From contig JAJRXC010000077.1 of assembly GCA_024276495.1 (NCBI GenBank), forward strand, positions 1 to 64,000: a stretch of DNA of 64,000 bases, given 5' to 3'. A program made the position numbers and the translations under genes. Origin of the DNA: Actinomycetes bacterium (lineage in GTDB: Bacteria > Actinomycetota > Acidimicrobiia > Acidimicrobiales > Aldehydirespiratoraceae). Positions 1 to 9,623 of this stretch are shown here, piece by piece (the first letter of the stretch is position 1; each line of letters starts with the position of its first letter). The notes under the pieces are model-generated. The model saw only the letters and a program-made list of their open reading frames with translations, was not told the origin of the DNA and did no database searches.

Positions 1-450
1 CTGCACTTCCTCACCGAGAACCCGCAGCAGCGGGCGGCGTGGGCGGCCGACTTCGAGGAGATCGCCCCGACCGCGGTCGAGGAGATCGTACGCCTCGCAT
101 CACCGGTCATCTCCATGCGGCGCACCGTGACGACCGACGGCGCCGAGCTCGGGGGCCGCACCTGGAACGAGGGCGACAAGCTGATCCTCAGCTACTGGGC
201 CGCGAATCGCGACGAGTCGGTCTTCGCCGACCCGCTTCGTTTCGACGTCGCCCGCAGCCCCAACGACCATGTGGGGTTCGGTGCGCCGGGTCCGCATTTC
301 TGCATGGGCGCCCATCTGGCCCGACGCGAGATCACCGTCGCGTTTCGCGAGCTGTTCCGTCAGGTCCCCACGATCCATGCCACCGAGGAACCAGCGATTC
401 TGCGCAGCAGCTTCATCAACGGGGTCAAGCGCCTTCCCGCGTCGATCTGA
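1..450 (+). CDS. Cytochrome P450, C-terminal part (5' end outside window)
   Basis: An open frame runs from base 1 to a TGA at 448-450, giving the last 149 residues of a P450. The K-helix ExxR is at fragment residues 28-31 (EIVR). The heme-binding loop FGAPGPHFCMG carries the axial Cys at residue 101. Heme-thiolate monooxygenases of this kind hydroxylate small hydrophobic substrates using ferredoxin or reductase partners, none of which is visible here. The substrate cannot be read from this fragment. It is convergent with the APH-like gene, 19 bases away. Family assignment is secure; the N-terminal half is missing. Confidence 0.93.
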   Translation: MHFLTENPQQRAAWAADFEEIAPTAVEEIVRLASPVISMRRTVTTDGAELGGRTWNEGDKLILSYWAANRDESVFADPLRFDVARSPNDHVGFGAPGPHFCMGAHLARREITVAFRELFRQVPTIHATEEPAILRSSFINGVKRLPASI

Positions 451-469
451 CGTCGTCGGGTCGGGGCGC

Positions 470-1507
470 TCAGAGCGAGCCGGTTCGGAGGATCTCGTCG
501 GCCATCGCGACCAGGTTGTCGACCGCGGCGCGGGCGTCGGTGTCGGCGGTGCCCTCCTGATCTCCCATCGCCCCCGCCGCGAAGCGGACCCGTACCCCTT
601 CGCTGATGGCGGCGAGGCGCCAGTGCTGAAAGGCGACGTACCAGGGCAGCTCGGAGATGTCACGGTCGGTTCGGCGGCCGTAGCGCTCGAGCATGTCGAC
701 TCGGCTGCCGAAGCCGGCGGCTTTCGTGGGGACGTCGGCGAGGCGGCCCTGGGCTCTCGGATCGTCACCCCACCACATCGCCATTCCCGCCACGTCGGCC
801 AGCACATCGCCGAGGGTGCAAAGCTCCCAGTCGAGCACGGCGGCGACCGAGCCGTCGTCTCCCATCATGCAGTTGTCCATGCGATAGTCGCCGTGCACGA
901 TGCCCGCGCCCTGCTGGGGCGGAATCGAGTCGACGAATCGCCGGTGGAGATCGTGGAACAGGGGCATGTCGCGGTCGCTGCCCTCGTCGATCTGACGTTT
1001 CCAGCGCCGTAGCTGGCGGGCGCAGTAGTCCTCGGTGCGCCCGAGATCACCGAGCCCGACCGTCGCGGGGTCCAGGGCGTGGAGGGCGGCGAGGGTGTCC
1101 GTCAGGGATTCGGTCATCACCGGCCGCAGTGAGGGGTCGACGGCCTCTCCGTCGGCGAGGTCGAAGATGATCTTGCCGGCCACGAAACCCATGACGTAGA
1201 AGTCGGCACCGTTGACCGCCTCGTCTTGGCACAATCCGATCATCGGGGGCACCGGGACCGGCGTGTCCCGAAGGGCCGACATGATGCGGTGCTCGCGCGC
1301 CATGTCGTGGGCGCTGGCGAGAACGTGGCCGGTCGGCGGCCGTCGCAGGACCAGCAGCGTGCCGGCCCGATCCGTGATCCGGTATGTGAGGTTCGACGCG
1401 CCCCCGGTGATCAGCTCGAACTCGAGCGGTGGGGTCAGGTCGGGTCGACGGTCGAGGATCCACGCGCTGACCGGCTCGGCGTCGATGCCGCGGGGCGCGC
1501 GCATCAT
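470..1507 (-). CDS. Phosphotransferase family protein (APH / ACAD10-11 kinase-like)
   Basis: 345 residues. The start is the ATG at 1507, which overlaps the TGA of the upstream F420 oxidoreductase as ATGA, so the pair is translationally coupled. The kinase core is clear: an N-terminal lobe with ITGGASNLTYRI (about 33-44), the catalytic loop HGDYRMDN (205-212) and the metal-binding DWE (226-228). Proteins of this type resemble the kinase domain of ACAD10/11, which phosphorylates hydroxyacyl-CoA, and aminoglycoside phosphotransferases. In actinobacteria they usually sit among acyl-CoA and F420 enzymes, so a role in hydroxy-acid or lipid catabolism is more likely than drug resistance. That role is inference. 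Confidence 0.88.
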   Translation of the reverse strand: MMRAPRGIDAEPVSAWILDRRPDLTPPLEFELITGGASNLTYRITDRAGTLLVLRRPPTGHVLASAHDMAREHRIMSALRDTPVPVPPMIGLCQDEAVNGADFYVMGFVAGKIIFDLADGEAVDPSLRPVMTESLTDTLAALHALDPATVGLGDLGRTEDYCARQLRRWKRQIDEGSDRDMPLFHDLHRRFVDSIPPQQGAGIVHGDYRMDNCMMGDDGSVAAVLDWELCTLGDVLADVAGMAMWWGDDPRAQGRLADVPTKAAGFGSRVDMLERYGRRTDRDISELPWYVAFQHWRLAAISEGVRVRFAAGAMGDQEGTADTDARAAVDNLVAMADEILRTGSL

Positions 1508-2406
1508 CGTCCCCCGGGGGCGAGCGCCTCGAGCAGGCCCCAGTCGGGTTGGGAACGGTTCGCCGGATCGATTGGCTGGATGCACACGTGGGTGGCACCG
1601 GCGTCGTAGTGGGCCTGGATGCGTTCGGCGATAGCGGCGTCGTCGCCCCAGGCCATCACCGCGTCGAGGAACCTCGGGGCCCGATCCTCGATCTCTGCTT
1701 CGGTGAAGCCGAGCCGCAGCCAGTTGTTGCGGTAGTTGGGCAGGTCCGCGTACATGCCGAGTTGTTGCCGGGTCGTGTCGTGGGCGATCTCGGCATCGGT
1801 GGTGCGCACACACTTCTGCTCGACGCACAACCACGCGTCGGGGCCCATGATCTCGCGGGCCCGGGCGGTGTGCTCGGGCGTCGTCCAGTAGGGATGGGCG
1901 CCATCGGTTTTCTCGGCGGCCAACGCCAGCATCTTCGGGCCGAGGGCGGCGAGCACGACCGGCGGTTCCTCCTCGGGGGCCACGCCGATGTACATCGACG
2001 ATTCCATCGCGTCGAGATACGCCCGCATCGTCGCGATCGGCTTGTCGTACGGGAGGTTGCGGAGGCCCTCGACCATCGGTGCGTGCGAGACCCCGAGCCC
2101 GAGCACGAACCGACCACCGGAGAGCTCGGCGAGGCTCCACGCCCCCTGCTTCATCATGCCGGGATGGCGCATGTGGATGTTGGCGATGCCGGTGGCGACG
2201 ACCAGTGTCTCGGTCGCGTCGAGAAGGATCGTCGCGTTGACGAACGGGTCGCGTCCGAAGGTGTCGGGGATCCACAACGCCGAGTAGCCGAGCGCCTCGA
2301 TCCTCGCCGCGAGCTCGCCGGTTTCGTCGGTGGTCAGCATGTCGGTGAAGAACCACACCCCGGTGGTGGACAGTCGATCACGCGAAGACGAGGTGGTGCG
2401 AGACAT
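1504..2406 (-). CDS. LLM-class F420-dependent oxidoreductase
   Basis: 300 residues from the ATG at 2406 (MSRTTSSSRD...). An earlier in-frame ATG at 2475 would overlap the divergent monooxygenase start and adds an unconserved stretch. The sequence reads as a luciferase-like TIM barrel: early LGYSALWIPDTFGRDPFV, then ETLVVATGIANIH and LSGGRFVLGLGVSHAP, typical of the family that uses F420H2. Its substrate is unknown. It is the first gene of a two-gene unit with the APH-like kinase and is divergent from the Baeyer-Villiger-type monooxygenase, 67 bases away, which suggests shared control. Confidence 0.9.
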   Translation of the reverse strand: MSRTTSSSRDRLSTTGVWFFTDMLTTDETGELAARIEALGYSALWIPDTFGRDPFVNATILLDATETLVVATGIANIHMRHPGMMKQGAWSLAELSGGRFVLGLGVSHAPMVEGLRNLPYDKPIATMRAYLDAMESSMYIGVAPEEEPPVVLAALGPKMLALAAEKTDGAHPYWTTPEHTARAREIMGPDAWLCVEQKCVRTTDAEIAHDTTRQQLGMYADLPNYRNNWLRLGFTEAEIEDRAPRFLDAVMAWGDDAAIAERIQAHYDAGATHVCIQPIDPANRSQPDWGLLEALAPGGR

Positions 2407-2473
2407 GGCGCTCACCCTCGCAGGCCCGACGCGGAACTGGCAAGCAGGGCGAACCGGGTGCGATCCTGCACCC

Positions 2474-4090
2474 ATGTCGGACGATGTCGATGTCGATGCG
2501 GTGGTCGTCGGGGCCGGGTTCGCCGGTCTCTACATGCTCCACTCCTTGCGGGGTCTCGGTCTGTCCTGTCGGGTGATCGAAGCCGGCTCGGGGGTCGGCG
2601 GCACCTGGTACTGGAACCGCTACCCGGGGGCCCGCTGCGATGTGCCGAGCCTGGAGTACTCCTACGGATTCGACGATGACATCGCCCGGGAGTGGACCTG
2701 GACCGAGCGCTACGCGACACAGCCGGAGATCCTGCGGTATCTCGAGTTCGTCGCCGAGCGGCTCGACCTGTCCCGCGACATCACCTTCGACACGAGGGTC
2801 GTGTCGGCCGCCGTCGACGAGGGTGCGAGCCGGTGGGTGGTGACGACCGACAACGACGAGATGATCTCCTGCCATTTCCTGATCATGGCCACCGGGTGCC
2901 TGTCGGCGGCCAACCTGCCCGCGATCGACGGCGTCGACGACTTCGGCGGGCCGACGTACCACACCGGTCAGTGGCCCCGTGGGGGCGTCGACTTCACCGG
3001 TTTGCGCGTGGCCGTGATCGGCACGGGGTCGTCAGCGGTCCAGTCGATCCCGCTCATCGCGGAGCAGGCCGACCGGGTGATCGTCTTCCAACGAACTCCG
3101 GCGTATGCGGTCCCGGCCCACAACCGCCCGCTCGACCCGGCCGAGGTCGAACAGGTCAAGGCCGACTATCCACGATGGCGAGAGGTCGCCCGCAACACCG
3201 GCACGGGGTTCGGCGGCCACCTCGCCGCGCCGCTGGTCGGCGCGCTCGAGGTCGACGAGGAGGAGCGACGTCGGGTCTACGACGAGCGCTGGGCCGCAGG
3301 AGGTCTGGCCTTTCTCGGATCGTTCAACGACTTGATGTTCGTTCCCGCCGCCAACGACACCGCCGCCGACTATGTGCGCGAGAAGATCGCAGAGATCGTC
3401 GACGATCCTGAGTTGGCGCGTCGACTGAGCCCCGCCACCGTGATCGGCTGCAAACGCATGTGTGTCGACACCGGCTACTACGAGACCTACAACCGGGAGA
3501 ACGTGGAACTGGTCGACCTGAGTGGTTCGCCGATCGAACGGCTCACCGCCACCGGGATCGAAGTGGCCGGGACCGTCCACGAGTGTGACGCGGTGGTGTT
3601 CGCCACCGGGTTCGATGCCATGACCGGCGCGATCGACCGGATCGACATCCGGGGCCGGGGCGGCCTGGCCCTCAAGGAGAAATGGGCGGCCGGGCCACTC
3701 ACCTACCTCGGGCTCCAGGTCAACGACTTCCCCAACCTGTTCATGATCACCGGACCGGGAAGCCCATCGGTGCTGACGAACATGGTCGTCGCCATCGAGC
3801 AGCACGTCGAATGGATCCGCGACGTCATCGAGAAGATGCACACGGAGGCGCTGGCCACGATCGAGCCGGAGGCCGACGCCGAGGCAGACTGGGTCGCCTA
3901 CGTCAACGCGGTCGCCGAGCTCACCCTGTTCAACGGCTGCAGCTCCTGGTATCTCGGCACGAACGTTCCGGGCAAGCCCCGCGTGTTCATGCCACTCCCC
4001 GGCTTTCTCGACTACAAGCAGAGATGCGACGAGGTCGCGGCCGCCGGCTACGAAGGGTTCGTGTTCGGCGTCGCGATGCCGGCCCGTTGA
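2474..4090 (+). CDS. Flavin-containing monooxygenase, Baeyer-Villiger type
   Basis: 538 residues from the ATG at 2474. The FAD-binding GAGFAG is at 13-18, with GGTWYWNRYPGARCD (about 42-56) typical of cyclohexanone-monooxygenase-like enzymes. The full BVMO fingerprint FxGxxxHxxxWP is present (F157, H163, W167-P168), followed by the NADPH-binding GTGSSA. Such enzymes insert oxygen next to a ketone to give an ester or lactone. The conserved late motif GPGSPSVLTNM is also present. The TGA overlaps a TTG start of a small membrane protein (TTGA). Substrate is unknown; a terpenoid or cyclic ketone is possible given the P450 nearby. Confidence 0.93.
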   Translation: MSDDVDVDAVVVGAGFAGLYMLHSLRGLGLSCRVIEAGSGVGGTWYWNRYPGARCDVPSLEYSYGFDDDIAREWTWTERYATQPEILRYLEFVAERLDLSRDITFDTRVVSAAVDEGASRWVVTTDNDEMISCHFLIMATGCLSAANLPAIDGVDDFGGPTYHTGQWPRGGVDFTGLRVAVIGTGSSAVQSIPLIAEQADRVIVFQRTPAYAVPAHNRPLDPAEVEQVKADYPRWREVARNTGTGFGGHLAAPLVGALEVDEEERRRVYDERWAAGGLAFLGSFNDLMFVPAANDTAADYVREKIAEIVDDPELARRLSPATVIGCKRMCVDTGYYETYNRENVELVDLSGSPIERLTATGIEVAGTVHECDAVVFATGFDAMTGAIDRIDIRGRGGLALKEKWAAGPLTYLGLQVNDFPNLFMITGPGSPSVLTNMVVAIEQHVEWIRDVIEKMHTEALATIEPEADAEADWVAYVNAVAELTLFNGCSSWYLGTNVPGKPRVFMPLPGFLDYKQRCDEVAAAGYEGFVFGVAMPAR

Positions 4091-4674: not shown

Positions 4675-4881
4675 TCATCCCTGCTTGTAGCTGAGGCGGA
4701 GCTTGGTGCGAAACGCGATGACGTTGCCGTTCTCGATGAGCACGTCCATCTCGACGACCTCCGCGACGCGGAGGTCGTCGTAGGTCTTGCTCGCCTCCTT
4801 CACCGCGTTCTGGGCGGCTCGTTCCCATGAGTCGCTGCTCGATCCGATCAGTTCGATCACCTGATAGACGCGGTCCTCCAT
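4675..4881 (-). CDS. Dodecin
   Basis: 68 residues from the ATG at 4881, the usual dodecin length. The sequence follows the family closely: VYQVIELIGSSSDSW (5-19), a helix EASKTYDDLRVAEV (29-42), then a strand ending FRTKLRLSYK. Dodecins form hollow dodecamers that bind flavins; mycobacterial members also bind coenzyme A. The gene overlaps the stop of the acyltransferase gene by one base (TGATG), so the two are co-translated. The tail of that acyltransferase looks like a second copy of this fold, which makes the pairing unusual. Confidence 0.95.
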   Translation of the reverse strand: MEDRVYQVIELIGSSSDSWERAAQNAVKEASKTYDDLRVAEVVEMDVLIENGNVIAFRTKLRLSYKQG

Positions 4882-5789
4882 CACTTTCCTCCATGGTCGT
4901 GGGTCGGCTGGTAGCGGGTGGAGACGGCGAGATCGGTCTGGAACGAGATGCCGTCGGGGTCGAGAACCAGACGAAGCCCCTTGACCTGTCCGACCCGGGC
5001 GTCGTCGTAGCGCGTACACGCCTCGGTGACGCTGCGGCGGGCGCTCGCGGCCCAGCCGTCGCCCGAGGTGCGGAATCGGTGGACCTGATAGACGGACTCG
5101 GATCCTCCCCGGATCAGCGGCGGTTCGTCGTCGGCGAACTCCGACGAACGTTGCTGTGGGGTCATCGTCGCGATCGCCGCCATCACGTCGTCGGTCATCT
5201 GCTGACGACGCCGTCTCTTGGCGCCGCCGAGGTAGCGGGCCGGGTCGATCGGTTCGCCGAAGCGAATCGTCACCTTGCCGGTGCGGCGGGGCACGCTGCG
5301 ACCGATCGGCTGGACCTCGTCGGTGCCGACCAGGCCCACCGGAATGATCGGCGCTCCCGTCTGCAGGGCCAGGTGGGCGACCCCGGTGTGACCCTTGTGG
5401 AGGCAGCCGTCGCGGCTCCGGGTGCCCTCGGGGTAGATGCCGAGCAGCTCGCCGTTGTCGAGGAGCGCGGCAGCGGTGTCGAGCGCGGCCATCGACGACC
5501 GGGCCTGTTGGCGACGGATCGGCACCATGCCGACGGCGGGGAAGAGGTATCTCGTCTTCCAGCTGTCCATGTACTCGGCCTTCCCGAGGAACAAGACGCG
5601 GCGCGGTGCGGACAACATCACCATCGGCGTGTCGAAGAACGAGACGTGATTCGGTGCCAGGATCGCGGGGCCGTGCGCCGGGATGTTGTGGGCACCGGAG
5701 ATGTCGGCGTCGTAGAGGCGCCGGATCAACGGCCGCCCGACGCGGCGCAGCGGATCCGCCAACCACCCGACACCCCATCTCTCGGTCAC
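4881..5789 (-). CDS. PlsC-type acyltransferase with C-terminal dodecin-like domain
   Basis: 302 residues. Residues about 20-215 are a lysophosphatidate-type acyltransferase: catalytic HX4D as NHVSFFD (H48, D53), substrate-binding YPEGTRSRDG (119-128), and GAPIIPVGLVGTDE. PlsC enzymes move acyl chains from acyl-CoA or acyl-ACP to lysophosphatidic acid at the membrane face. Residues about 232-295 are extra. They align by eye with the neighbouring dodecin: VYQV at the start, a central Trp, TRYDDARVGQV against KTYDDLRVAEV, then a closing beta-strand. The acyltransferase call is firm. The dodecin-like tail is my own alignment and should be tested. Confidence 0.88.
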   Translation of the reverse strand: MTERWGVGWLADPLRRVGRPLIRRLYDADISGAHNIPAHGPAILAPNHVSFFDTPMVMLSAPRRVLFLGKAEYMDSWKTRYLFPAVGMVPIRRQQARSSMAALDTAAALLDNGELLGIYPEGTRSRDGCLHKGHTGVAHLALQTGAPIIPVGLVGTDEVQPIGRSVPRRTGKVTIRFGEPIDPARYLGGAKRRRRQQMTDDVMAAIATMTPQQRSSEFADDEPPLIRGGSESVYQVHRFRTSGDGWAASARRSVTEACTRYDDARVGQVKGLRLVLDPDGISFQTDLAVSTRYQPTHDHGGK

Positions 5790-5897: not shown

Positions 5898-6443
5898 GTG
5901 AATGCGGATCCGACACTCGACGGCGCGGCGGTGAGCGACGATCCGTTCGCCGGGCCCGAACTGCACTCGTTCGACGAGTGGTATCACCGCGAGTACCGCC
6001 GGGTCGTGGCGCTCGTCTACACATTTTCGGGCAGTCGCACCGCGGCTGAGGAGCTGACCCAGGACGCGTTTCTCGAAGCCCATCGCCGGTGGGGCACGCT
6101 CTCGACCTACGACGACCCCGGCGGCTGGGTCCGCAAGGTCGCGATGAACAAGGCCCGTTCGCGGTTTCGGCGGGCCGGAGCAGAGGCGAGGGCCTACGCC
6201 CGTCACATCGGGCGCCAACGCGACCTGCCGGCCGTGTTGCCCGAGTCGGCCGAGGCGTTCTGGGCCGCGGTGCGAAGCCTGCCGACTCAGCAGGCCAAGG
6301 TCGTGGTCCTGCACTATCTCGACGACCTCCCCGTCGACGAGATCGCCGACATTCTCGACATCGCGTCAGGGACCGTCAAGACCCACCTGCACCGCTCCCG
6401 TGCCACTCTCGCCGAGCGCCTCACCCCCGAGGATCTCTCATGA
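5898..6443 (+). CDS. RNA polymerase sigma factor, ECF/sigma-70 family
   Basis: 181 residues from the GTG at 5898; a second GTG at 5931 is equally plausible, as neither has a clear ribosome site. Region 2 is seen in YRRVVALVYTFSGSRTAAEE and LTQDAFLEAHRRW, followed by GGWVRKVAMNKARSRFRR. Region 4 is LPTQQAKVVVLHYLDDLPVDE with the helix-turn-helix IADILDIASGTVKTHLHRSR. It directs RNA polymerase to a small regulon. Its stop overlaps the ATG of the next gene (ATGA), so that membrane protein is the natural candidate for its regulator. Confidence 0.92.
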   Translation: MNADPTLDGAAVSDDPFAGPELHSFDEWYHREYRRVVALVYTFSGSRTAAEELTQDAFLEAHRRWGTLSTYDDPGGWVRKVAMNKARSRFRRAGAEARAYARHIGRQRDLPAVLPESAEAFWAAVRSLPTQQAKVVVLHYLDDLPVDEIADILDIASGTVKTHLHRSRATLAERLTPEDLS

Positions 6444-8386
6444 ACGACTTCGAAGAACTCGCCCGCCGCAGTGTGGAAGCCGCCGATGACAGCGTGCGTC
6501 GCCTTGCCGTTCCCGACCTCGTGGCCCGTCGCCGCCGTCGCCCGGTCGTGCTCGGCCTCGCGCTGGGCGTGCTGCTGCCCGTGGTCGGTGTCGTCATGTT
6601 GCAGTCCGGCGACGACTCCACCCCGACAGTCGTCGGACCCGAGACGGCGGGGGAGGGGCTGGCCGTCGACACCGGAGGCGCCCGCGACGAGCAGTTCTTT
6701 CGCCTCGAGTGGCCGACTTCGGGCGATTTCGATCCCATTGTCGCGGCCGATCTTGCCGGTGACGACGCCGACTTCCCCACGGCCACGACGAAGGTCTACG
6801 GCCGCGGTACTCCGGAGGACCCGTTCGCCCAGGCGGATCTCGTGATCGTGACGCTCGTCGAGGCTGAGGAGTTTGCCGGTGAGCTCTTTGGCGAGAGAAC
6901 GACCGTCCGAGGCAAGGCCGGCCGGATCGACCCGACGATGCTCAAACTCGGATTCCGCAGCGATGTCCGATGGCGCGAAACCAACGAACTGGTTGTGATG
7001 GTGTCGAGCCGGTCGATGACCCAGGAGGAACTCGTGGATATCGCGGAGTCGCTTGAATTCGATGGCCCCGAGGTGTCGTTCGACTCGCCGCTCGATCTCG
7101 TGATCGACACCGACACGCTGCCGGTTGCCTCCCCTCGGATGGGCTCCGTGAGCTGGATTCTCACCTACTCCCCCGCGATGGGAGGTGCGGAGAGGCCGGT
7201 GTCGCTCTACGCCGAGGAAGCGCGGCCGGAGGTTCTGCGGCTCCAGCGGTACTTCTTTGCGCCGGATGCCGAAGTTGTGGAGGTGCGCGGTGAGCGAGGC
7301 TGGCTCTCCACATCTCCCGGGCTGTCCCCGTTTGGTCTCAACACCACCGAACGCTTGATCTGGTCAGAGGGGGGAGTTGTCCTCTCGCTGGCGATTGGAG
7401 ACGGACCAGTGGCGGGTGGGCTGAGCGCGGTCGAGATAGCGGGAGAGCTGGTCCAGATCGACGAAGCCCGCTGGGCCGAACTCGTGGCGGCGGCCGCGCA
7501 GAACCGAGGCGAGATCGAGTTGATGGCACAGGGCGAGTTCGAGGCCGACGACCAGTCGCTCAGGTGGCAGTTGATGATCGACCGGTCGCTCTCGTTGTGC
7601 CTGTCGGTCGATTTCGGTGATCCCGTGCACACGAGCTGTACCGGCTCGACTTCCATCGCCGACGGGGTCCCCGCGACACAGGGGATCGGTTCGGTCAGCT
7701 TCTCCGTGGAGGAACGGTGGGTCGAGGTCTGGGGTCCGATCGGCGACGGTGTCGACCGGCTGGTTCTCGAGTCGCCCGACGGGGCTTCGGTCGATCTCGA
7801 GATCTACTCGCCGCAGTCGATCGAAACTCGAGTGGTCGGGTTGTTGATCCCGCTTCGCCCGGGTGACGGCGACTACGAGTTGGTCGCTCTGGCGGCCGAC
7901 GGCGCCGAGATCGAACGGCGAGCCTTCGCCGAGGGCCCGGTCCCCATCATCCCCGAGCTTCCGGAGGGAATCGAGGCGGCGCTCATCGTCGGGCGCGATC
8001 GTGACATCGCCTGGGAAGTTCGAGCGGACGCCGGCGGGGTCTGTATATGGGCAACCTTGCTGGATTCCGGATTCGACCTGGCGGGGTGCAGTCCCGGCTC
8101 AACAGTGAAACTCAGACTGGGGAATGAATCTGTGATCGGCGATGGTCTACTCGTCGCAGGAGTGGCACCGGCGTGTGTCGATGCGGTTCGACTCACACAT
8201 TCGGGGGAGTACACGGAGAAGGCAGCTCAGCTCACCGACCTGATTGATACGCCAGGGAAGCTCTTCTTCGCGTGGGCCACGACCGAGGGACCCGGCGCGA
8301 CGACGCTGTCCCTTCTCGATGAGCAAGGAGGAGTGATTGCTGCGTTTGTTCCCCTTGAGTCCGCGGAGGTCGAAGTCGTCTGCTGA
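6440..8386 (+). CDS. Membrane-anchored protein coupled to the sigma factor (possible anti-sigma)
   Basis: 648 residues from the ATG at 6440, coupled to the sigma gene by ATGA. A cytoplasmic N-terminus (MNDFEELARRSVEAADDSV, then RRRRR) is followed by one membrane segment, about residues 36-54 (VLGLALGVLLPVVGVVMLQ), and a roughly 590-residue outer part of no recognised family. No zinc anti-sigma HxxxCxxC motif is visible. Position and topology fit an anti-sigma factor or a sensory partner of the sigma factor. The N-terminal 35 residues are short for a classic anti-sigma domain, so this stays an inference. It ends 4 bases before the convergent CoA-transferase. Confidence 0.7.
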   Translation: MNDFEELARRSVEAADDSVRRLAVPDLVARRRRRPVVLGLALGVLLPVVGVVMLQSGDDSTPTVVGPETAGEGLAVDTGGARDEQFFRLEWPTSGDFDPIVAADLAGDDADFPTATTKVYGRGTPEDPFAQADLVIVTLVEAEEFAGELFGERTTVRGKAGRIDPTMLKLGFRSDVRWRETNELVVMVSSRSMTQEELVDIAESLEFDGPEVSFDSPLDLVIDTDTLPVASPRMGSVSWILTYSPAMGGAERPVSLYAEEARPEVLRLQRYFFAPDAEVVEVRGERGWLSTSPGLSPFGLNTTERLIWSEGGVVLSLAIGDGPVAGGLSAVEIAGELVQIDEARWAELVAAAAQNRGEIELMAQGEFEADDQSLRWQLMIDRSLSLCLSVDFGDPVHTSCTGSTSIADGVPATQGIGSVSFSVEERWVEVWGPIGDGVDRLVLESPDGASVDLEIYSPQSIETRVVGLLIPLRPGDGDYELVALAADGAEIERRAFAEGPVPIIPELPEGIEAALIVGRDRDIAWEVRADAGGVCIWATLLDSGFDLAGCSPGSTVKLRLGNESVIGDGLLVAGVAPACVDAVRLTHSGEYTEKAAQLTDLIDTPGKLFFAWATTEGPGATTLSLLDEQGGVIAAFVPLESAEVEVVC

Positions 8387-8390
8387 CCGC

Positions 8391-9623
8391 TCAGCCGAAG
8401 GCGCCGGCTGCCTTCAGGGCTTCGATCTCCTCGGCGGACCTCCCAAGGACCTCGGCCATGACGTCGTCGTTGTGTTGGCCGACGGTGGGGGCCATGGTGG
8501 GGCACGGGAGTGGGTCGCCGTCGACGAAGACCGGCAGTGGTAGCTGTTCGCAGCCGACCTCGTCGATCGGGTAGAAGCCCATCCGGGCCTGGAACTGGGG
8601 GTCGTCGCCGATGTTGGCCGGGGTGTTCACGGGGGCGATCGTGGTGTTGTGCTCGTTGGCGAAGTCGAGCCACTGCGCACAGGTCCTGGTCAGGAAGATC
8701 TGCTGGAGCTCACGCTGGAGCTCGGTGTTGCCCCGGGCGTGGTCGGCGAACTTCGAGCCGGGCCAGCGCTCGAAGAGGTCCATCCGGTCGACGCCCGCAC
8801 AGAAGTTCTTCCAGAACGCCTGCTCCGACGCCATGAACAGCACGTGGCCGTCGACCGCTTCGTACATCTGGTAGCGCACGCCCTCCCACATTCCCGCCAG
8901 GCCGGCGGGGCGCCGCTCGTAGTCGTCCGACGGGTTGCCGGTCACCTCATCGTCGGGGCGGAGGTAGGCGCGTTCGGATTCGATCCGGTACCAATCCATG
9001 TAGGCGGCGGCGTCGGACTGGGCCATCTCCATTTCGCAACCCTCACCGGTTTCGCGGGCCTTGATGATCCCGGCGAGAATCGCGATCGCGCCGACCATCG
9101 GGCCGACGTTGATGCCGACGTTGGGCATCGTCGGCGGGATGCGCGTGAAACCCTCGTCGTCGGTGACCGGTTGCACGATGCCGGCCCAGGTGTCGTAGGC
9201 GATTCCGTGGCTCGGCATGTCGCGATAGGGGCCGGTGGCGCCATAGCCGGACAAGGTGGCGAAGACGATCTTGGGGTTGACCGCCTTCAGCTCCTCGTAG
9301 CCGAGACCGAGCTTGGACAGGGTGCCGGGCCGCATGGCTTCGACGACGACGTCGGCGGTCGCGACCAGATCCCTGTAGACCGATTTGCCCTCGTCGGTCT
9401 TGAGATCGAGGGTGATGCTGCGCTTGCCGCGATGGGTGTGGAGATGCAGCAGGGAGATGTCGCCGATCATCGGCCAGGTCATCTGGCGGATGTAGTCACC
9501 CGCCGGAGACTCGACCTTGATGACGTCGGCGCCGAGATCGGCGAAGAAAGTGGCGACGTGACCGGGCCCGAGCAGGCTCGATTCGATCACGCGCACGCCG
9601 GAGAGAAGTGCGGCGCTGGACAT
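8391..9623 (-). CDS. CaiB/BaiF (family III) CoA-transferase
   Basis: 410 residues. The N-terminus LLSGVRVIESSLLGPGHVATFFADLGADVIKVE is diagnostic, and ADVVVEAMRPGTLSKLGLGYEEL is the conserved middle. Family members move CoA between acyl-CoAs and carboxylic acids, usually in degradation pathways. By eye the stretch where the catalytic Asp normally lies reads NVGINVGPMVGA (about 168-179) and has no Asp, so activity may be altered. A 17-bp inverted repeat at 9644-9660 sits 20 bases upstream of the ATG. Substrate is unknown. Confidence 0.9.
   Translation of the reverse strand: MSSAALLSGVRVIESSLLGPGHVATFFADLGADVIKVESPAGDYIRQMTWPMIGDISLLHLHTHRGKRSITLDLKTDEGKSVYRDLVATADVVVEAMRPGTLSKLGLGYEELKAVNPKIVFATLSGYGATGPYRDMPSHGIAYDTWAGIVQPVTDDEGFTRIPPTMPNVGINVGPMVGAIAILAGIIKARETGEGCEMEMAQSDAAAYMDWYRIESERAYLRPDDEVTGNPSDDYERRPAGLAGMWEGVRYQMYEAVDGHVLFMASEQAFWKNFCAGVDRMDLFERWPGSKFADHARGNTELQRELQQIFLTRTCAQWLDFANEHNTTIAPVNTPANIGDDPQFQARMGFYPIDEVGCEQLPLPVFVDGDPLPCPTMAPTVGQHNDDVMAEVLGRSAEEIEALKAAGAFG

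Follow-up and report, generated by a model that had tools for sequence, protein, structure and literature searches.

Dodecins are single-domain proteins that form flavin (or calcium) cages, and enzyme-studded dodecin cages have so far, to our knowledge, been laboratory constructs only. A storage function for flavins and coenzyme A has been ascribed to dodecins (PMC8044443). In the engineered mtDod, which derives from the flavin-type dodecin of M. tuberculosis, the 12-mer exposes its termini on the outer surface, and the expression of a plain and a fused gene from one message yields heterododecamers; mixing plain with cargo-bearing subunits was the remedy proposed by the authors for crowding and insolubility (PMC7414021). 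Rv0379 of Mycobacterium tuberculosis (SecE2, “calcium dodecin”; 3onr) is a separate small protein without an acyltransferase domain. On the enzyme side, the PlsC protein of Thermotoga maritima (TmPlsC, 5kym), a 1-acyl-sn-glycerol-3-phosphate acyltransferase, carries HX4D and EGTR motifs and lacks a C-terminal dodecin domain.

The window, which is the whole 64,000-nucleotide stretch of actinobacterial DNA analyzed here, contains a gene pair in which these two protein families meet. Its enzyme shares the HX4D/EGTR motifs with TmPlsC, but, unlike TmPlsC, it continues into a dodecin domain, and the stand-alone dodecin encoded next to it has Rv0379 as its closest solved relative. The arrangement resembles the engineered mtDod fusions, in which cargo is attached to a dodecin subunit and plain subunits from the same message dilute it (PMC7414021). 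Whereas those constructs are man-made, the pair in the window is natural, builds on an Rv0379-type dodecin, and comprises two clearly different subunits. The literature covered, mostly papers available without subscription, contained no dodecin–enzyme fusion and no link of dodecins to the PlsC-type acyltransferase family. The dodecin–acyltransferase fusion appears to be undescribed so far, and it combines two known components, a dodecin domain and an enzyme of the PlsC type, rather than being a new kind of system.

Organization of the gene pair

The first gene (4881..5789, reverse strand) starts with GTG and encodes a PlsC-type acyltransferase of 302 residues with a C-terminal dodecin domain. 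The acyltransferase domain spans residues 30–153 (5331..5702, reverse strand), and a conserved linker, EPPLIRGGSE, occupies residues 222–231 (5097..5126, reverse strand), as seen in an alignment of nine fusions and in a tenth from genome G943. The dodecin domain, hereafter the tail, covers residues 232–296 (4902..5096, reverse strand) in a β-α-β-β order, and its assignment draws on pairwise, profile–profile, and predicted-fold evidence. The second gene (4675..4881, reverse strand) encodes a stand-alone dodecin of 68 residues of the Rv0379 (calcium dodecin) type, which is recognized by PF07311 with 80.3 bits against the Pfam gathering score of 22.5, has 3onr as its best PDB match, and represents the only PF07311 match in the whole genome. 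The stop codon TGA of the acyltransferase and the start codon ATG of the dodecin have one base in common, in agreement with the one-base overlap described in an initial sequence-only reading of the locus. Seven other acyltransferase-like regions occur in the genome, the best of which shares 56% identity over residues 7–216 and lacks the tail, so the fusion is a specialized paralogue and not the sole such enzyme of the cell.

Several neighboring genes differ between the window and its relatives. Divergent from the acyltransferase, positions 5930–8386 of the window hold an ECF sigma factor-like gene and, after it, a large protein read in a different frame. The acyltransferase of G508 and G511 instead adjoins a homologue of the gene at 8391–9623 (class III CoA transferase-like), which suggests either an insertion of the 5930–8386 gene pair in the window or its loss from those two genomes. 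On the other side, positions 1–4090 group a cut P450-like frame, an APH-family kinase, a luciferase-like monooxygenase, and an FMO-like monooxygenase gene, and this group is common to G508 and G511.

The acyltransferase domain

The acyltransferase domain matches PF01553 over residues 30–153 with 102.1 bits (E 2.6e-29; Pfam gathering score 23). The HX4D motif (H48, D53) and the PEGTR motif (120–124) are intact, and N47, H48, D53, P120, E121, G122, T123, and R124 are invariant in an alignment of 25 proteins. The more specific model TIGR00530 (1-acylglycerol-3-phosphate acyltransferase) gives 81.2 bits, below the NCBI cut-off of 102.95. In the predicted model, the fold closest to the front part of the protein is that of TmPlsC (5kym; residues 1–212, Z 20.5, 26% identity). 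The enzyme is best explained as a PlsC-type acyltransferase of (lyso)phospholipids whose catalytic motifs are intact, its substrate class being putative.

Non-fused homologues bear short low-complexity tails at the site where the fusions bear the dodecin domain. Across families, the C-termini of many such relatives (e.g., L091, L093, L104, and L105) end in RRSSADVL or RRSSAxVL after the low-complexity stretch, and this ending is a possible docking motif.

The tail as a diverged dodecin domain

The sequence-only reading had proposed by eye that the end of the enzyme resembles the adjacent dodecin, and this resemblance is confirmed. In a single BLASTP comparison, residues 232–302 and the stand-alone dodecin share 22 of 62 positions (35% identity, 60% positives, E 7e-11). 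Their Smith–Waterman score of 86 lies far above that of 20,000 shuffled sequences (mean 21, standard deviation 4, maximum 47; z = 16), and no 71-residue segment from the six-frame translation of the window scores above 44, apart from the segments of the dodecin and the tail themselves. A profile–profile alignment of nine tails with eight adjacent dodecins, following the suggestion of a profile search, gives a probability of 98% and E 1.9e-14 over 64 columns, and a profile of five tails picks up stand-alone dodecins from further genomes, with E-values mostly between 1e-12 and 1e-5. General family models largely miss the domain, though: PF07311 does not match the tail of the window and matches four of the nine tails weakly (best E 0.022), and the NCBIfam models do not detect a dodecin in the tail, so a domain of this kind would escape notice in annotation by Pfam and NCBIfam. 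The nearest solved protein is 3onr (Rv0379) for tail and stand-alone dodecin alike, at E 1.3e-14 for the latter and at E 0.046 for the tail alone, a value that is weak by itself.

Structure prediction, also suggested beforehand, returned a dodecin fold for the tail. In the AlphaFold2 model of the full protein, strand 232–243, helix 246–260, and strands 265–277 and 280–292 are predicted, with block pLDDT values of 73–90 from residue 241 on, and values fall below 50 in the EPPLIRGGSE linker. The same elements are obtained when the tail is modeled alone from an alignment of four tails with no dodecin row. These predictions are of monomers only; superposed on solved dodecins, the predicted tail gives Z scores of 7.8–9.1 with rmsd values of mostly 1.2–2.6 over 60–68 residues (Rv0379: Z 8.4, 29% identity). 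A Foldseek search with the tail-only model returned dodecins as its first 24 matches, with 3onr (Rv0379) at the top and probabilities of 0.98–1.00, the E-values being weak (4e-3 at best) because the chain is so short. Sequence comparison and modeled fold together confirm residues 232–296 as a diverged dodecin domain.

Ligand-site residues and dodecin type

The ten tails and the adjacent dodecins were compared, in one alignment, with 57 stand-alone dodecins from other Actinomycetota. The adjacent dodecins belong to the Rv0379 type, with Trp19, Glu20, Ala22, Arg38, Asp46, Arg58, and Ser64 invariant. At the flavin-site positions (W38, R45, and Q57 of the T. thermophilus dodecin), flavin dodecins carry Trp, Arg, and Gln, and the Rv0379 type carries Val/Ile, Asp, and Arg. 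The equivalent residues in the window are V39, D46, and R58 in the stand-alone dodecin and V39, R46, and Q58 in the tail; the flavin-site Trp occurs in none of the ten tails, nor does the full Trp/Arg/Gln set. The central Trp that the sequence-only reading had pointed out is indeed present, but it corresponds to the Trp at the helix start of Rv0379-type dodecins and not to the flavin-stacking Trp. Flavin storage, considered for both proteins, was rejected because the flavin-site Trp/Arg/Gln residues are replaced (by Val/Asp/Arg in the stand-alone dodecin); the link to flavin raised in that reading is thus not supported, and storage by either protein appears unlikely from the residues present. 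For the storage of CoA, also raised there, the analysis yielded no pointer.

The full Rv0379-type signature (SWExAA, R38-V/I39, Asp46, and Arg58) is found in the stand-alone dodecin, which has SWExAA, DDxRVA, and the missing flavin Trp in common with Rv0379 itself. The tail differs from Rv0379 in lacking Asp46 and Arg58, two residues that never vary in the Rv0379 type: D46 and R58 are present in 66 of 66 dodecins of this type and in none of the ten tails. The tails retain a core comprising Tyr6, Trp19 (8/10, with Phe in the other two), Ala23, Asp36, Arg38, Val39 (9/10), and Ser64, together with an invariant Asp35 and Gly40 and a conserved DDxR motif. They lack Glu20, Asp46, Arg58, Phe65, and mostly Gly13, all of which are invariant in stand-alone dodecins, and are one residue short in strand 1. 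Charges are reversed at several positions, E10 being replaced by Arg in 8/10 tails, K60 by Glu or Asp in 9/10, and D46 by Arg in 5/10. This pattern suggests that the fold of the tail has been kept and its ligand face rebuilt.

Dodecin types substitute for each other inside one family. A genus mate without the fusion (G512) has a flavin-type dodecin (L181; LDWFEV, then Q and R), and another genome of the family (G538) carries an atypical dodecin that lacks the usual signature (L187).

Distribution and pairing

The fusion was surveyed by scanning the genomes of 84,980 species for peptide patterns, an approach sensitive to close relatives only, and by whole-genome searches, with profile searches covering Actinomycetota. 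This survey, as proposed in the sequence-only reading, located the fusion in about ten genomes, all from one actinobacterial order: the window, G508 and G511 of the same genus, G530 and G532 of a second genus, G535/L002 of a third genus, L003 and L004 from assemblies titled Actinomycetes, and G170/L083 and G943 from two other families of the order. It is present in 6 of 51 genomes of the family and in 3 of 397 in an even draw of the order; neither the draw of the class (395 genomes) nor that of the phylum Actinomycetota (396 genomes) contained a fusion besides that of the window. The fusion is rare and patchy, yet recurrent.

The coupling to a stand-alone dodecin noted at the outset extends to every genome in which the fusion was found. 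The dodecin gene directly follows on the same strand at a spacing of −8 to +21 nt (overlaps of 1, 4, or 8 bases; gaps of 0, 19, or 21 bases). Among the 51 genomes of the family, an Rv0379-type dodecin occurs in the six that carry the fusion and in no others, and two of the remaining genomes have other dodecin types and no fusion. Such co-occurrence is inflated by shared descent, yet it spans three genera and two further families. Two reverse controls were negative. No dodecin lies within the examined flanks of non-fused acyltransferase loci, and Rv0379-type dodecins from other members of the class and phylum lack an acyltransferase of this kind within about 1.5 kb. In the 396-genome draw of the phylum, stand-alone dodecins were found, a few of them in long open frames, and none of those examined had such an acyltransferase within about 1.5 kb. 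With both controls negative, the gene linkage goes with the fusion. A wider operon was considered and rejected, as beyond the close relatives (G508, G511, and G535) no other gene is common to the surroundings, where an amidase, a P450, an MTTB-family methyltransferase, or a transporter may be found instead; because the surroundings otherwise differ, the two genes constitute a unit. The EPPLIRGGSE segment is near-invariant in all ten fusions and absent from non-fused homologues; docking to the cage or to the enzyme domain is a possible role for it.

Evolution and selection

In a phylogenetic tree, the tails form one clade and the adjacent dodecins another, each with a support of 100/100, and related genomes are grouped much alike in both. 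This pattern fits a single origin of the pair followed by joint inheritance. The tails have diverged strongly (branch length 2.95), and with this long branch and 68 columns their branching point is not readable from the tree. A recent tandem duplication of the neighboring dodecin into the acyltransferase gene is unsupported, given that the tails group apart from the adjacent dodecins and the two clades are not sisters, at the low resolution of 68 columns.

Between G508 and G511, the enzyme has a dN/dS of 0.07, the tail one of 0.13, and the dodecin one of 0. At larger distances, the ratio is 0.18–0.66 for the tail and 0.06–0.23 for the dodecin, values that are rough because synonymous changes are near saturation in distant pairs. 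The linker shows zero amino-acid change in most pairs, and the conservation of the stand-alone dodecins is far above that of the tails. Judged by these substitution rates, the tail is a maintained domain under purifying selection, not a decaying one.

A possible mixed cage and its alternatives

The best reading, given about an even chance, is that the two genes encode one assembly, a mixed dodecin-like cage displaying acyltransferases; a dodecin-based particle with such a display had been suggested in the sequence-only reading. Both proteins would be made from one message in tight coupling, and the tail, its ligand-site residues lost, would act as a packing domain, so that the two proteins could build a joint dodecin-like cage, either the 12-mer or a trimer-based portion of it, with acyltransferase tails filling some of the positions. 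As dodecin termini lie on the outer surface, the acyltransferase domains would sit outside, joined via EPPLIRGGSE, and several active sites could engage the membrane simultaneously. Tail homology and fold, strict pairing, gene order, and constraint on both genes, with the analogy to mtDod, would support such a cage; we infer from them the co-assembly, its stoichiometry, membrane avidity, a benefit to lipid synthesis, and an effect on activity. The fuller picture of a natural two-component enzyme cage, in which the acyltransferase is anchored via a specialized dodecin subunit and the remaining subunits are supplied by a dedicated Rv0379-type dodecin, is advanced tentatively, as a possibility that falls somewhat short of probable. 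The strong divergence of the tails, with their loss of otherwise invariant residues and of one residue in strand 1, weighs on the other side, since oligomer contacts could have been lost as well, and the better conservation of the stand-alone dodecin would also fit a dodecin acting by itself.

An alternative is that the tail self-assembles only, giving an acyltransferase homo-oligomer, with the stand-alone dodecin forming a separate cage and the genes lying together by common origin. The reversed charges at positions 10, 60, and 46 of the tails would suit such an insulated, self-matching assembly, as would the separate clades of tails and adjacent dodecins, but the same changes could be balanced inside a single sheet or could, on the contrary, favor mixed contacts, and strict co-occurrence and gene order across differing surroundings would not be needed; this alternative is considered unlikely. 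A regulatory role, in which the tail, with or without the stand-alone dodecin, senses calcium, CoA, flavin, or a lipid intermediate to tune the acyltransferase, is suggested by the name of the nearest solved relative (3onr, calcium dodecin), the described storage of flavins and coenzyme A by dodecins (PMC8044443), and the DDxR motif conserved in the tails. With the flavin residues absent from both proteins and the D46 and R58 of the dodecin type (66/66) missing in all ten tails, ligand sensing is judged unlikely. That the tail is a mere stabilizing or membrane-positioning appendage, with no connection to the dodecin protein, accords with the low-complexity tails that it would replace at the same place in non-fused homologues, but would leave the constant neighbor gene and the near-invariant linker unexplained, and is thought very unlikely.

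Implications

The conserved fusion, always paired with a plain subunit, connects the Rv0379 dodecin type to membrane lipid synthesis. If the mixed cage is real, the pair would provide a natural precedent for dodecin-based enzyme display, hitherto the work of engineers, and would give dodecins a scaffold role in membrane lipid synthesis.
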